Shown here: piece by piece, positions 33,628 through 40,919 of the stretch
How the letters are laid out: each line of letters begins with the position of its first letter
Numbering within the stretch: position 1 is the stretch's first letter
Assembly (NCBI GenBank): GCA_010672585.1
Contig: JAAHGF010000036.1
Span: forward strand, 1 to 63,555
From: Okeania sp. SIO1I7
GTDB taxonomy: Bacteria > Cyanobacteriota > Cyanobacteriia > Cyanobacteriales > Microcoleaceae
DNA length: 63,555 nt
Reading direction: 5' to 3'
The notes under the pieces: model-generated
Seen by the model: the letters and a program-made list of their open reading frames with translations, nothing else
Database searches by the model: none
Told to the model about the DNA's origin: nothing
Translations under genes and position numbers: made by a program

Positions 33628-34482
33628 TGTAACTTTTCTATACTTTCGGAGCTTTGATTAATTTTCCTGTAAAGGTAGCTACGAAACTTTCTATCTCTGC
33701 GTCAATAATATTGAATAGCGAATTAGAAGAAATAAGCAATAGGGAAATAAGGTTATCTTCAATCCAACTTTGATGTCGGCAAGGGGTCTCCCGTTATATG
33801 AATGTTAACGGGAGGGGAATTGCAGACCAACAAATAAACTGCGCAGCGTCCACTTATTTCTTGCATCGTGTACTTTTTTGTGTTACTCTAATTATATCAG
33901 GAGTAGCGGTAGTACGCACCTGAGAGAACCATGAAAACAACATAGAGTATGGAGTTCAATTCAGAAGTTCTAGTCAACCCGTGAAAAGGTAAAATTCTTG
34001 AGGGAACTAGATGAGTACAGAATTGTTTAGTACAAAAAGGCGGTGGGTCTCATCGCCTCTGTCTGCCGAGGGTTAAGTGGTTGCACTCCCTGTGAAACAG
34101 AAAGCCCGCGTCCGTGAGGTTGGGAAGCCTACATCATAATCTTTGATTTGATGCAGGAGAACGTCACATATTTCAGTCTCTGATTAGACATCTCCAATAA
34201 TAAAAAATATAGCATTTGAAGCAAATGACGCAGATATATCAAAAGCTTAAAACTCAGACAACGTAATACTTGTCCTTTTTTCTTCTTCCTTCTGCGATAA
34301 AATCAATTATCGAAGAGAAGTCTTGAACCTATCCCACTAATAATATTTTTGCTAAAAACCCTAAATATTTTGATAGTTAAAAACGAAAAATAAAGCTTTT
34401 AAAACACATTTTACTTAAACAAATAAACTTGTTAAAAATAGTGGGATAGGTTCTTCTATTCTTTCCCCCTACTCCCTACTCC
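33628..34482. other. Gap with orphan IS605-type right end and tandem cccctactcc
   Basis: 33787-33825 has an inverted repeat ctcccgtt/aacgggag. 33895-34170 is the orphan omegaRNA-like segment listed separately. 34240-34305 holds the aaactcagacaacgtaat/ccttcttcc block seen elsewhere. 34463-34505 is an actccctactccct-type tandem running into the ParB-like gene's 3' end. No gene. Confidence 0.6.
33895..34170 (+). ncRNA. Second orphan omegaRNA-like IS605 right end
   Basis: Ordered blocks shared with 11470-11700: gaaccatgaaaa (33928), tatggagtt, ctagtcaac, ggaactagatgag, aggcggtgggtctc, ctgtgaaacagaaagccc. It terminates in a catcataatc...gatgcagg stem followed by GTCACA (34160-34168). There is no transposase beside it. 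The sequences have diverged substantially outside the blocks, so this is an old copy or a separately maintained RNA. It is convergent with the ParB-like gene. Confidence 0.55.
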
Positions 34483-35292
34483 CTACTCCCTACTCCCTAC
34501 TCCCTCTTTTCTTAAGTAAAATATTTCTTTTAAAGCATTAATTTTTGCTTTCCCAATTCCACACTTTAATTTTGTAATTGGTTCTAAACTTTTCCAATTT
34601 TGACGTGGAGCTTCAGCAATACGTTCTGTTGCTTTTGTTAATTCAACTTGTTTAAGTTGACTATTTGGCTTTTCGATTAAATATTGAAGTGCTGCTTGAA
34701 TTTCATCTTTTGTAGCAGTAGAAAGATTTACTTTTTCTGGTTCAGGTATTGGTTGGGGAGTCAGATAAAATACTTCTTTTAAAGCATTGACTTTAGCTGT
34801 TGTAATTCCACACTTTAATTTTGTAATAGGTTTAAAATCTTTCCAATATTGACGTGGTGCTTCATCAATACGATTTGTGGCTACTGCTAGTTTCACTCCT
34901 TTAAGTTGACTGTCTAGTTTTTCAATTAAGTATTGAAGTGCTATTTTAATTTCGTCTCTTGTGGCGGTGGAAAGATTTATTTGTGGTATTTGTTCCCCAG
35001 ACAAAATCTTGCTAATTTTTTCAGTTTCTTCACTTTCATCAGCAATAACACACCAAACTTTTTCTAAACCAGCAGCTTCAGCTACAGCAAAAATAAAGGA
35101 GTTACCAATTACTTCATACTTATCCTCTTCAACTTCTTTCACAATTACAGGTACCCAGTTTCGCCCCCCACTTTCACTGAGAAATTTTGCCGTTGCTGAA
35201 ATTAGAAATTCTGGCGCATCTATTCCATCCCCCGGTTCAATTTCATCAATATATAGATGTATTAACTTACCAATATTACTCAAATTACTCAT
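34483..35292 (-). CDS. ParB-like N-domain protein with two HhH-like repeats
   Basis: The protein has 269 residues. The N-terminal ~90 residues fit the ParB/Srx nuclease-like fold (IDEIEPGDGIDAPEFL, VPVIVKEVEEDKYEVIGNS, AEAAGLEKVW). Two near-identical 72-residue repeats follow at 106-177 and 189-260, each starting (I/V)NLSTAT(R/K)DEI and ending KLKCGI..AK.NALKE(V/I)FYL, which resemble helix-hairpin-helix DNA-binding elements. A C-terminal partition-type HTH is absent, so it is not a canonical ParB. It lies downstream of a nuclease-like/ParA fusion and an HTH gene on the same strand. A DNA-segregation or defence-associated DNA-binding role is inferred. Confidence 0.75.
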   Translation of the reverse strand: MSNLSNIGKLIHLYIDEIEPGDGIDAPEFLISATAKFLSESGGRNWVPVIVKEVEEDKYEVIGNSFIFAVAEAAGLEKVWCVIADESEETEKISKILSGEQIPQINLSTATRDEIKIALQYLIEKLDSQLKGVKLAVATNRIDEAPRQYWKDFKPITKLKCGITTAKVNALKEVFYLTPQPIPEPEKVNLSTATKDEIQAALQYLIEKPNSQLKQVELTKATERIAEAPRQNWKSLEPITKLKCGIGKAKINALKEIFYLRKEGVGSRE

Positions 35293-35339
35293 TGTAAAAA
35301 ATACTCCTTAACCAAATCTATATAATATGTGCGAAAATC

Positions 35340-35685
35340 AAAGAATTAATCAATGACTTGATATTGCTCTTCTACCACTTTTTTCACAATGACAGGTATC
35401 CAGTTTTTACCATCTGTTTTATTCAGAAATTTTGCCGTTGCTGACATTAGAAATTCTGACGCATCTATTCCATCCCCCGGTTCAATTTCATCAATATTAG
35501 ATGTATTAACTTACCAATATTAAGTAGGTCGGTGTTGAAAATTATCGTTATGAAAAGGCAGGAGGCAGAGGGCAGAAGGGAAGAGAGTTTTTGGCAAATT
35601 TACTTTTCGTTACTAACTTGTTGTTTTTTTGAACCGTTCTACTTACTCAAATTACTCATTGTAGAAAATACTCCTTAACCAAATT
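35340..35685 (-). pseudogene. Partial duplicate of the ParB-like gene 5' part
   Basis: 35360-35520 and 35644-35685 match 35128-35280 and 35278-35325 of the intact ParB-like gene almost base for base (atttctgg/acgcatctattccatccc, aattactcattgta, aatactccttaacc). So the 5' 50 or so codons and the leader were duplicated in tandem. The copy is interrupted by an AGTAGG element (35523-35643) and has no open frame. It separates parA from the intact parB-like gene. Confidence 0.85.
35523..35643. repeat. AGTAGGTAGG-family MITE-like element in duplicated ParB-like fragment, TA target
   Basis: Ends AGTAGGTCGG (35523-35532) and CCGTTCTACT (35634-35643) are each bordered by TA (35521-35522 and 35644-35645). 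The intact paralog at about 35268-35290 reads accaatattactcaaatt without the element, so it is the empty site and proves insertion at a TA with TA duplication. Sister elements are at 50439-50562 and 52256-52344. Confidence 0.9.
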
Positions 35686-37038
35686 TATATAATATCCCTT
35701 AGCTATCTTATCTTTGTAAACAGCAGGTATATGAGAAAAAGCAGAATTTGCAATAGAAGCATAATTAGGAAGTTCAAATATATCTGTATTTTTGTTTGCT
35801 GCTGTATAGCGGGGATAAAAATATGGTCTAAGGGCAAATTGATGATTTGAATTTTCTTGAGCTTCTCTAATAAGTTTATTGATATAAGATTTAGCAACTT
35901 TCTTTTGAGCATCGGTCATTCTTTCACCGTTTAAGAAAATCGGTAGAGCTACAGGTCCGAAATCTTCATGTTTTCTTCTTGCTGCATCTTTTTTTCTTGC
36001 TTTTTGAACTGCTGGAATATATTCTTTAATAGCTATAGCTGCATTTTCTAGGGAAAATAAGTTGTTATGTTTTGCTGGAATTAACACTACATCTGCGGCA
36101 TAAACAGCACTAACACTAAATATTCGCCAGTTGGGAGGAGCATCAATGAAGATATAATCATAGCTATTTTTCAGTGTGTCTAATAATTTGCTTAATCTAT
36201 CAAAGGTAATTTTTTGCGCAACATCGTCCCAATCGCCAAGTTTTCCATGTACTGGAATTACATCAAAACCAAATGATTTTTTTGATTTTTTACTATTAAG
36301 TTTGTAGGGATAAATGACATCTGTGACATTAATATTTTTATCTACTAAACAATCATAAAAAGTAGGTGTACCTGGTTTTATTGCTAGAGAATTTGTCAGG
36401 TCTCTTTGATTAGGGTCAAAATCAACAATCAAAACTTTCTGATTATACAGAGATAAGGTTGCTGCTGTATTAACTGTAGTTGTTGTTTTTCCTACGCCAC
36501 CCTTATTGTTATAAACTGCTACTGTTAAAGCTTTTTGTGGTTTATCAATTTTTTCTTTAATTGATGTAGCGATTTTGATGATATTTTCTGGATTAATTTC
36601 CAAACAAACTGTCGCCGGATGAATAACTTTTCCATGCTTTCTGAATAATTGAATGTGATTAGCATTGGTAATTATTCCCCACTTAACTGTTTGACAGTTT
36701 TCTGCTAACAAATACCGTTTAATTTGCACAACTGTCTTTTTATATTGTGTCGAATCAGGAGTTAAATTAACATTCCGAGCTTTCAATTCTACGAGAATAT
36801 CTGGATTAGTCTTTGTTTGGGAAAATATATCATTTTCCGTACTATGACGGATAGCATAATCAACAGCATCAGTACCACTTCCTGTAGAAAAAGAAGGCAC
36901 CTGCTCATTTAGTTCAAAACCTAAAAACTTGAATAATTCAGAAGCAAAAATCTGATTAACTTGAGCTTCAGATGCGTCCTCCGGCAGATTTTTCACCAAA
37001 GCATCTACAAGGGCTTGATTTTTCACAGCACTATCCAT
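35656..37038 (-). CDS. PD-(D/E)XK nuclease-like domain fused to ParA-type ATPase
   Basis: The protein has 460 residues. Residues about 1-150 resemble type I restriction HsdR N-terminal / PD-(D/E)XK domains: FLGFELNEQVP, then NPDILVELKAR (candidate Asp80, Glu84, Lys86) and VVQIKRYLLAENCQTVKWGIITN. Residues about 170-450 are a ParA/MinD ATPase with deviant Walker A NNKGGVGKTT (177-186, Lys179 and Lys184), Walker A' DFDPN (206-210) and a YIFIDAPPN Walker B. ParA proteins partition DNA, and this fusion is unusual. The 3' end reaches the duplicated ParB-like fragment. Together with the HTH gene 90 bases upstream it looks like one transcript. Catalytic activity of the N-domain is inferred. Confidence 0.85.
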   Translation of the reverse strand: MDSAVKNQALVDALVKNLPEDASEAQVNQIFASELFKFLGFELNEQVPSFSTGSGTDAVDYAIRHSTENDIFSQTKTNPDILVELKARNVNLTPDSTQYKKTVVQIKRYLLAENCQTVKWGIITNANHIQLFRKHGKVIHPATVCLEINPENIIKIATSIKEKIDKPQKALTVAVYNNKGGVGKTTTTVNTAATLSLYNQKVLIVDFDPNQRDLTNSLAIKPGTPTFYDCLVDKNINVTDVIYPYKLNSKKSKKSFGFDVIPVHGKLGDWDDVAQKITFDRLSKLLDTLKNSYDYIFIDAPPNWRIFSVSAVYAADVVLIPAKHNNLFSLENAAIAIKEYIPAVQKARKKDAARRKHEDFGPVALPIFLNGERMTDAQKKVAKSYINKLIREAQENSNHQFALRPYFYPRYTAANKNTDIFELPNYASIANSAFSHIPAVYKDKIAKGYYINLVKEYFLQ

Positions 37039-37128
37039 CTGTCGTTAATTTTTTTGACTTTAACTATCAGCCTATCACGACAAGTATGGCAAAAAATCTC
37101 AATTTTATCTACTTACTTAACTTATCTA

Positions 37129-37623
37129 CTATATGTATTTATAAGCTCGATTAGCACTAACCGGATTAAAATTCGTATCTACAAATTGCACAGGACTAAA
37201 AGTATCAATCCACAAGTGAGCACCACATCCAGCCGGGTTGTGAGGTCGATAAACAATTCGACAAGGACCTTTGATTTCTAGTTGATAACCATAGTTATTG
37301 TGATTAGTCTGCTTCACAGAAACTACTGGTTTTATATCTTTTAGTGGGTTATTTGCATTGCGCTGAATTATGTGCTGATTAACATGAATCATTGTGGGTT
37401 TAGTACGCCTCCGCTTACACCAAATACCTTTCGGTCCTCTGGTACCAGGAGAAATTACAGGCATTTCATTATCTTCTGGCCCAGAAATGGGAATTTTCCA
37501 GAAGCCATTTTCTTTGTAAGCACCTTTGACCCTACCTTGAGCTAATAATACTCGCAAACGTTGAGCTGAAATACCTAGTAAATATGATGCTTCTCTAGTT
37601 CCGATAATTTTTTCTTTAGCCAT
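37129..37623 (-). CDS. Helix-turn-helix (excisionase/MerR-like) protein
   Basis: The 164-residue protein's N-terminus IGTREASYLLGISAQRLRVLLAQGRVKGAYKENG (quoted in part) is a HTH_17/excisionase-type winged-helix with a final WKIPISG strand. Residues 60-164 are basic in the first part (KGIWCKRRRTKPTMI) and then beta-rich (YQLEIKGPCRIVYRPHNPAGCG, AHLWIDTF), matching nothing I know. It is first in a putative operon with the nuclease-like/ParA fusion (90-base gap) and the ParB-like gene. It could regulate the cassette or bind its centromere-like site; both are guesses. Confidence 0.75.
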   Translation of the reverse strand: MAKEKIIGTREASYLLGISAQRLRVLLAQGRVKGAYKENGFWKIPISGPEDNEMPVISPGTRGPKGIWCKRRRTKPTMIHVNQHIIQRNANNPLKDIKPVVSVKQTNHNNYGYQLEIKGPCRIVYRPHNPAGCGAHLWIDTFSPVQFVDTNFNPVSANRAYKYI

Positions 37624-39748: not shown

Positions 39749-40919
39749 ATGGTTGAAAAAGCGTACAGATTTAGATTTTACCCAACTCTGGAGCAGGAAA
39801 GTCTGTTGCGGAGGACAATAGGTTGTGTGCGCCTAATCTACAATAAGGCTTTAGCTGCTAGAACTCAAGCTTGGTATGAAAGCAAAGAACAAGTAGGGTA
39901 TAAGCAAACTTCTGCTATGCTGACGAACTGGAAAAAACAGGAAGATTTAGATTTCCTCACAGAAGTTAGCAGTGTTCCATTACAGCAAGGCTTAAGACAT
40001 CTACAAACAGCTTTTCCTGCGGAATGCTGCGCAAACACTAACTTCTTTAGTGGACGTGCCAAATATCCCAACTTTAAGAAAAAGCGCGCCGGGTGGTAGT
40101 GCAGAATTTACGCTCGTCCGCATTTAAGTGGAAAGATGGTCAAGTCTACCTAGCCAAATGTGCTGAACCATTACCTATCAGATGGAGTAGGCAACTTCCA
40201 CAAGACTGTGTACCAAGTACAATTACAGTGAAACTTGAACCCTCTGGCAGATGGTCAGTGTCCCTGAGAGTCAATGACCCTAGAGATTTAAAGCTGAACC
40301 CAGTAACCAAACAAGTTGGTATTGACGCGCGGAATTACCAGTTTAGTTACTACCAGTGATGGAGAAAAAATTGCCAACCCAAAGAACCTCAACAAGTTAC
40401 ACAAAAAACTGAGGTTAGCGGGGAAGTCTCTAAAGAGAAAAACCAAGGGGTCTAATAACTATCAAAAGGCCAGGCTGAAAGTAGCCAGGATACACACCAA
40501 GATTAAAGATTCAAGACTTGACTATACCCATAAGCGTGCCTACTCAATTAATCAGAGAAAACCAAACGATAGTAGTTGAGGACTTGGCAGTAAAAAATAT
40601 GGTCAAGAATCATAACCCACCCCCATCCCCTCCCGGGAGGGGAGCAAGAGGGGTGGGTAGTGATGCCAACTGGGGAGAGTTAGTGAGGCAATTAGAATAC
40701 AAAGCAGAATGGTACGGTCGTCAACTAATTAAAATTGACAGATATTTCCCTAGTTCTAAGCGTTGCTCTAATTGTGGTCATGTAGTGGAAAAATTACCTC
40801 TAAATATTAGAGAGTGGGATTGTCCAGAGTGTGCAGCTCACCACGATCGCGACATAAACGCTTCGATCAACATTTTGGCTGCGGGAGGAGCAGTCTCAGT
40901 CTGTGGAGCGCGCTTTTAG
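39749..40919 (+). pseudogene. tnpB: tnpB (RNA-guided nuclease-type) pseudogene
   Basis: Four segments in three frames reconstruct a TnpB: MVEKAYRFRFYPTLEQESLL; FKWKDGQVYLAKCAEPLPI with the RuvC-I region KQVGIDA (break at about 40330); SLVTTSDGEKIANPKNL; and IVVEDLAVKNM (RuvC-II Glu), the zinc ribbon CSNCGHVV...CPEC and the RuvC-III Asp in HDRDINASINILAA. At least three frameshifts inactivate it. PAECCAN (40016-40036) is a 21-base in-frame insertion of the gcgcagcattccgcagg repeat, and residues PPPSPPGRGARGV (about 40615-40655) come from a G/C-rich palindrome. Confidence 0.9.

Follow-up and report, generated by a model that had tools for sequence, protein, structure and literature searches.

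Why would a ParA ATPase, a type of protein that to our knowledge is normally nuclease-free, carry a nuclease-like domain at its N-terminus? The question arises from a 63,555 bp stretch of Okeania sp. SIO1I7 DNA (contig JAAHGF010000036.1 of assembly GCA_010672585.1; hereafter the window), taken from a source genome of 9.48 Mb in 109 contigs. A first reading made from the letters without database searches (the sequence-only reading) had grouped three minus-strand genes of this window as a possible cassette: a helix-turn-helix (HTH) gene, a ParA fusion and a ParB-like gene. All three open reading frames (ORFs) proved to be real; the unit, however, is a pair, namely the ParA fusion and its ParB-like partner, and it is found in many cyanobacteria. 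We assign a probability of roughly 0.55 to the reading that this pair serves partition or positioning as a module of non-canonical ParAB type, whose ParA has a probably active nuclease. DNA partition had been among the roles proposed at the outset, and it is the best supported; the nuclease-like/ParA fusion is tightly coupled to its ParB-fold partner across cyanobacteria. The two genes are:

35656..37038, minus strand: ParA-type ATPase with an N-terminal HsdR_N-type PD-(D/E)XK-like domain, 460 amino acids (Pfam, alignment, AlphaFold, Foldseek); residues 1-165 nuclease-like, 172-347 ParA/AAA_31, ~350-460 C-terminal extension
34483..35292, minus strand: ParB-like partner, 269 amino acids, with a divergent ParB-N fold (~1-100) and helix-hairpin-helix (HhH)-like repeats at 105-177 and 188-260

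The identification of the larger protein as a ParA ATPase was correct. PF13614 (AAA_31) matched residues 172-347 with an expect value (E) of 4.6e-31, the top Foldseek matches were Soj/ParA (E 9.5e-17) with McdA also among the fold matches, and the deviant Walker A motif KGGVGKT retains its signature lysine, K179 and K184 being present in 51/51 sequences of an alignment that joins the window protein to 50 sequences chosen for variety among the 69 of full length that our script listed. A library of viral structures contained a phage 'ParA' of 456 amino acids at a template modelling (TM) score of 0.41; in a phage collection the ParA matches spanned 28–35% of the query, within the ATPase part, and the ParB-like protein had no match. 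The Pfam scan of the fusion returned no helicase family, hence no superfamily 2 (SF2) translocase of the kind found in the HsdR chain.

The HsdR-N-like character of the N-terminus, also suggested by the sequence-only reading, is seen in PF13588 (HSDR_N_2), which scored 24.3 bits in the window protein, just below the cut-off of 25 bits, passed that threshold in two plasmid homologues (25.5 bits each) and was matched at E ≤0.01 in 48 of the 51 aligned sequences (best E 1.6e-8). The candidate catalytic residues named initially were D80, E84 and K86. Two of these were borne out, since E84 and K86 are present in 51/51 sequences, as are E24 and Q105, whereas D80 is ruled out as a catalytic residue, being Asp in only 5/51. 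The catalytic Asp is likely to be D60, which is Asp in 50/51 and N in the remaining sequence, and the complete set of E24, D60, E84, K86 and Q105 is intact in 50/51. Further afield, the E, D and E-x-K residues are retained in 10 distant genome loci and in the aligned plasmid proteins, the E-D-ExK pattern persisting across subgroups down to ~27–35% identity; Q105 is not retained in the distant loci L146 and L147 (L numbers denote loci and G numbers genomes throughout). Structure prediction, proposed earlier as a check on this domain, gave a consistent result. In the AlphaFold model of the fusion (predicted local distance difference test score (pLDDT) 92.2, predicted TM score (pTM) 0.92) the domain is composed of a helix (24-38), three strands (46-51, 58-63 and 81-85), a second helix (97-110) and further strands (120-124 and 128-135), a helix-strand-strand-strand-helix-strand order. 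E24 (helix 1), D60 (strand 2), E84 (strand 3), K86 (just beyond strand 3) and Q105 (helix 2) occupy the elements expected for a PD-(D/E)XK core of the HsdR_N type. The E24-D60-E84-K86 pattern matches that reported for EcoR124I HsdR, whose active site is given as D151, E165 and K167, helix 1 adding E37 as a putative further residue (PMC2878639). Conservation of this kind suggests that the nuclease on ParA is probably active.

These residues also bear on whether the domain cuts DNA at all. Large plasmid ParAs of the P1/F type have an N-terminal HTH DNA-binding domain, and the position of the PD-(D/E)XK-like domain mirrors it; the domain might then be a non-cutting platform for DNA binding or dimerisation, that is, a swapped accessory domain in an ordinary partition system, and the single sequence with N at D60 would be compatible with that. 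A non-catalytic domain need not keep the E24-D60-E84-K86-Q105 set, and its near-universal retention, together with the depth to which E-D-ExK can be followed, therefore weakens this explanation, which we consider quite improbable.

The partner has the ParB fold that had been predicted for it. PF02195 (ParB_N) reached 17.4 bits in the window protein against a cut-off of 26.3, but was matched at E ≤0.05 in 50 of 51 aligned partners (the window protein and 50 of the 72 listed sequences), and Foldseek searches with the AlphaFold model (pLDDT 89.9, pTM 0.66) ranked ParB and Noc CTPase domains first, with a best E of 2.5e-6 for ParB and PadC at rank 12. A profile search of the PDB with the ParB-like alignment yielded chance-level matches, among them Noc (E 0.51) and Rho (E 1). 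The two repeats of the window partner, HhH-like by resemblance, are less alike than the 'near-identical' of the sequence-only reading, with 53 of 73 residues identical, and are encoded on a 249-base tandem repeat. Relatives mostly possess a single HhH-like repeat followed by a Rho_N-like end; Rho_N was matched in 43/51 partners and had no match in the window copy. The 51 members matched 19 Pfam families in all, none of them a ParB-HTH family, in agreement with the earlier proposal that the canonical ParB DNA-binding domain has been replaced. At the position of GERR, the canonical cytidine triphosphate (CTP)-binding motif of ParB, the partner has GNSF, of which N64 is invariant and G63 and F66 are nearly invariant.

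We found the two genes to be closely associated. Within 243 genomes of the order, the N-domain is present in 69 and a ParB-like match in 80, and 65 of the 74 N-domain matches have a ParB-like match within 3 kb. Some of the nine unpaired matches are genes that have been split or shortened, as in G158, G133 and G155, where a ParB-like match lies on another contig; for the 508-amino-acid ORF of G137:C2 no partner was found. Two protein scans provided 81 loci, one of them viral and the other 80 retained from 131 relatives on genome contigs, and a ParB-like ORF of at least 60 amino acids follows the fusion in 74 of them. In four of the seven loci without a partner ORF no more than 0.7 kb is left before the locus ends, and the partnerless L091, L099 and L104 have fusion ORFs of just 126, 399 and 188 amino acids. 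L006-L034, the top 29 relatives when the 243 genomes were searched and partly the same sequences, all have the partner. Stop and start codons overlap by exactly four bases (ATGA) in 54 of 66 intact pairs, a set that omits L041, L049 and L079 as rearranged or partial and uses start codons chosen by script. Across the phylum the N-domain was detected in 45 of 386 genomes, 11 of them outside the order, and seven of these 11 have a ParB-like match; two genomes of 1.7–1.8 Mb carry both genes side by side. The nearest fetched relatives of the window locus are in Okeania hirsuta (99% over the N-domain), followed by further Okeania and Trichodesmium genomes. One locus, L110, comes from a metagenome-assembled genome named Tatlockia (3.7-kb contig), for which contamination is likely because the remaining 79 genome loci are titled cyanobacterial.

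Copies are also carried by mobile replicons, and those that hold the only ParA would fit a role in partition. Close pairs are carried by the Nostoc sp. UHCC 0870 plasmids unnamed4 and unnamed9, and a distant subgroup with the same order of elements (D, E-N-K, ParA, small ParB-like), matched in 13 of the 243 genomes, occurs on a third Nostoc plasmid, two Pseudanabaena plasmids and Leptolyngbya boryana pLBA. On three replicons, namely plasmid NZ_AP017567 (12.6 kb), pLBA (78 kb) and a 58-kb virus contig that may be a fragment, the ParA of the pair is the sole AAA_31 match; four other plasmids have two or three AAA_31 matches each. The presence of a terminase and two tyrosine recombinases suggests that pLBA is phage-plasmid-like. 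On the virus contig (L121, from IMG/VR) the pair sits amid phage-type repressors and an Erf-like annealing protein, which suggests a temperate phage or phage-plasmid. A match on this contig to phrog_2, taken as a terminase marker, was uninformative, as phrog_2 also matches 13 of 14 control genomes.

The same distribution is relevant to the main rival, an anti-invader or incompatibility nuclease, in which the ParB-like protein would recognise a foreign or competing replicon, ParA would assemble with adenosine triphosphate (ATP) and the HsdR_N-type domain would destroy the DNA, chromosomal copies serving as immunity and plasmid copies fighting rivals. Its patchiness (69/243 genomes in the order, 45/386 in the phylum) and the copies on plasmids already bearing other Par systems would fit such a role, as would retention of the nuclease residues over deep divergence; standing as the sole ParA on three mobile replicons argues against it. 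Comparison of the window genes with relatives gave ratios of non-synonymous to synonymous substitution rates (dN/dS) of 0.16-0.38 for ParA and 0.15-0.27 for ParB, indicating purifying selection. Against L043 and L049, two of eight same-site relatives, the flanking ychF and decarboxylase genes have a dS of 0.14-0.17 and parA has a dS of 0.43 and 0.45; in the other six, parA dS is not plainly above the flanks. By segment, dS against L043 is 0.13 in ParA 1-90, 1.65 in ParA 236-295, 0.63 in ParB 1-60 and ~0.15 in ParB 61-183, and against L049 it is raised across the whole of ParA (0.36-0.60) and in ParB 1-60 (0.60). In the pairs L043-L049 and L045-L046, of 21 compared, dN is highest in ParA 236-295 and ParB 61-183 is much closer. 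The simplest reading is that a contiguous tract, running from parA into the start of parB, has been replaced, and allelic replacement of this sort would suit an anti-invader role. So would the contrast in eight Microcystis-like sequences between ParA and ParB (w 0.58 vs 0.17; Fisher p 3e-6), where ParA 236-295 evolves faster than the remainder (62:13 vs 201:114, p 0.0015). That fast segment is, however, not significantly above w = 1 (p 0.31), and no co-variation of ParA 236-295 with ParB 1-60 was found across 47 pairs, for which the partial correlations were -0.04 and 0.02; among all 24 values the maximum was 0.27, for ParA 296-350 with ParB 1-30.

The genomic surroundings do not favour a defence role either. 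A crude PADLOC comparison at E 1e-10 over 56 loci, in which families rather than ORFs were counted and the listing named 25 families per set, gave 37 defence families for 139 of 276 ORFs within 3.5 kb of the pair and 71 for 137 of 175 ORFs at 5.5–10 kb, hence no enrichment close to the pair. A defence island is thus unsupported, and the anti-invader island raised by the sequence-only reading gains nothing from this test; the locus is stably placed in Okeania/Trichodesmium. Furthermore, no PADLOC 2023 model of one system fits both genes, the ATPase part matching only PDC-M28B (E 4.4e-9) and the partner only BovA (E 0.01). We therefore regard an anti-invader nuclease as a tentative alternative, well short of an even chance. 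Partition and anti-invader activity could also be combined in a single 'armed' system, in which ParA sorts its own replicon and also uses the nuclease and the divergent ParB to cut or nick the DNA of replicons that compete or have no partner. One machine would then provide both partition and incompatibility or immunity, and the chromosomal copies would be its domesticated form; this we consider unlikely.

The proposed three-gene cassette did not survive comparison across loci. Its third member is:

37129..37623, minus strand: HTH_17-like gene, 164 amino acids, a neighbour only (weak match, E 0.041)

The HTH gene adjoins the pair in only 7 of the 81 fetched loci, all Okeania/Trichodesmium, and belongs to a dispersed multicopy family with relatives in 38 of the 243 genomes; its own genome alone has at least 14 copies besides this one. 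It is accordingly rejected as a third component. It is itself under purifying selection (dN/dS 0.14-0.24). Scattered copies of the HTH_17-like family were noted in G000, G084, G160, G185 and others, with 15 scored matches in several genomes and up to 45 first-look candidates in one, and the family is perhaps linked to a mobile element. Elsewhere in the window, an ORF at 39749-40099 has a translation that, judged by eye, looks like the beginning of a transposase of the TnpB/OrfB type, and an Rfam search of the window returned zero matches. A larger conserved neighbourhood was also rejected: the two genes aside, the first 45 recurring clusters listed reflect genus synteny or resemble, by eye, common large families. 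The lack of another conserved neighbour indicating a DNA cargo leaves room for a chromosomal module that positions a protein or membrane cargo instead, in the manner in which McdAB positions carboxysomes; ParA/MinD ATPases position varied cargo, and McdA is among the fold matches. The partner, unlike McdB, has a ParB fold with HhH-like domains and, in the majority of relatives, Rho_N domains, the nuclease-like domain suggests a DNA cargo, and copies reside on mobile replicons, making a non-DNA cargo highly improbable.

Under the partition or positioning reading, the two genes would be translationally coupled, with the HsdR_N-type domain taking the place of the HTH of large plasmid ParAs and a ParB that dispenses with the canonical parS-binding HTH. 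ParA would take up ATP and load onto DNA, the ParB-fold protein would occupy a site on the cargo DNA by means of its HhH-like domains and the Rho_N domains that most relatives have, and it would stimulate release of ParA, thereby moving or positioning the cargo replicon. We infer that the nuclease domain would cut or nick DNA inside the ParA-ParB complex. On plasmids and phage-plasmid-like elements the role would be replicon partition, and the chromosomal copy in this Okeania genome may be a long-retained, probably domesticated version.

Several observations weigh against this scheme. When the N-domain was compared with PDB profiles, no match rose above chance level, and all 50 PDB matches listed in the structure search were ParA/MinD-superfamily chains, none confirming the putative nuclease fold, which is drawn from motifs, Pfam and predicted secondary structure. 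CTP binding by the partner is doubtful because GNSF replaces GERR. The nuclease motif is kept and most fusions are paired, but the two genes, whose separate occurrence had been named as damaging to the cassette, do sometimes occur apart: 23 of 87 ParB-like matches in the 243 genomes have no N-domain match within 3 kb (nine adjoin distant-subgroup fusions, the rest being fragments or unexplained), and four of the 11 genomes outside the order (L140-L143, 2.5–3.3 Mb, one family) carry the fusion without any ParB-like match. Since ParM and other ParA-type genes are also borne by unnamed4 and unnamed9, the pair is not the sole partition candidate on those two Nostoc plasmids, and both plasmids on which its ParA is the only one belong to the distant subgroup, leaving the virus contig as the only close case. 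Finally, a parS-like repeat near 37039-37128 or further upstream was not established: no shared motif is present upstream of the window genes, and no parS-like site was established upstream of parA from inverted repeats and shared 10-mers.

With regard to inverted repeats, strong examples were present at -80 to 0 of parA in 4/68 real compared with 0/204 shuffled stretches, and farther upstream in 3/68 (-160 to -80) and 1/68 (-300 to -220). We noted inverted repeats starting at about -43 to -52 in L050, L051, L054, L056, L057 and L076, and a palindrome resembling TGTCCCCAAGTGGGCACA or GCCCAC..GTGGGC some -55 to -70 from the gene in L083, L101, L106, L115 and L118; in both groups these are possible operators or centromeres. 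In L140-L142 the lone fusion adjoins genes that resemble, by eye, rpsB and tsf.

The region between the two window genes has been rearranged, as the sequence-only reading had recognised:

35334..35695, minus strand: tandem-duplication footprint, a remnant of the first parB copy with a co-duplicated parA 3′ end

Here 35334-35497 matches 35089-35252 at 82% identity and 35643-35695 matches 35276-35328 at 96%, ~120 bp separates the two matching stretches, and the remnant of the first parB copy is frame-broken, confirming the tandem partial duplicate. The parA stop and the ATG of this first copy overlap as ATGA at 35656-35659, as they do in other lineages, and a copy of the parA 3′ end precedes the intact parB, indicating tandem duplication of a unit spanning the end of parA and the start of parB. 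Displaced or fragmented parB genes are also seen in Okeania hirsuta (L041, L042) and L049, and the simple overlap is retained in L043 and L045-L047. The final codons and stop of the ParB-like gene are encoded by a heptanucleotide repeat (CCCTACT, 34467-34505, 5.6 copies, 100% match). Just downstream, at 34325-34453, lies a 129-bp repeat resembling a miniature inverted-repeat transposable element. Its terminal inverted repeats are perfect over 15 bp (GAACCTATCCCACTA / TAGTGGGATAGGTTC), and it has 31 full or partial matches in its own genome, itself included, at 80–100% identity.

No description of an HsdR_N-type domain joined to ParA was found, and none of the titles listed in literature searches that covered few subscription papers concerned a nuclease-ParA fusion. 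If the reading is correct, a widespread cyanobacterial ParA with a restriction-enzyme-type active site and an atypical ParB would tie DNA segregation to DNA cutting, and the pair offers a candidate, open to direct testing, for the means by which cyanobacteria and their plasmids and phage-plasmids sort replicons or police them. A survey of ParB-CTPase-fold proteins (PNAS 2025) describes, in its main text, proteins that likewise combine a ParB fold with unusual further domains, of which only DUF3850 fusions were consistently co-encoded with parA; that text has zero occurrences of 'rho', 'SAP domain' or 'helix-hairpin', and as it applied PF02195 with the gathering cut-off, under which the window partner scores, it would miss this protein (PMC12704722).

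Among known systems, McdAB resembles the pair in having a cyanobacterial ParA-type ATPase, with McdA in the fold matches, and differs in that McdA has no nuclease domain and McdB no ParB fold. Type I ParABS systems (Soj/Spo0J; plasmid ParA/ParB) share the KGGVGKT ATPase and a ParB-CTPase-fold partner encoded just downstream, here mostly with overlapping stop and start codons; this pair departs from them in the HsdR_N-type domain on ParA, in a partner that falls below the ParB_N cut-off, has HhH-like and Rho_N domains in place of a ParB-HTH match and GNSF in place of a GERR-like motif, and in having no established parS. With the HsdR N-domain of type I restriction enzymes (PF13588/PF04313) the ParA fusion shares the helix-1 E, the D, the ExK and a Q on core helix 2, but here the nuclease-like domain is fused to a ParA ATPase rather than to an SF2 translocase.

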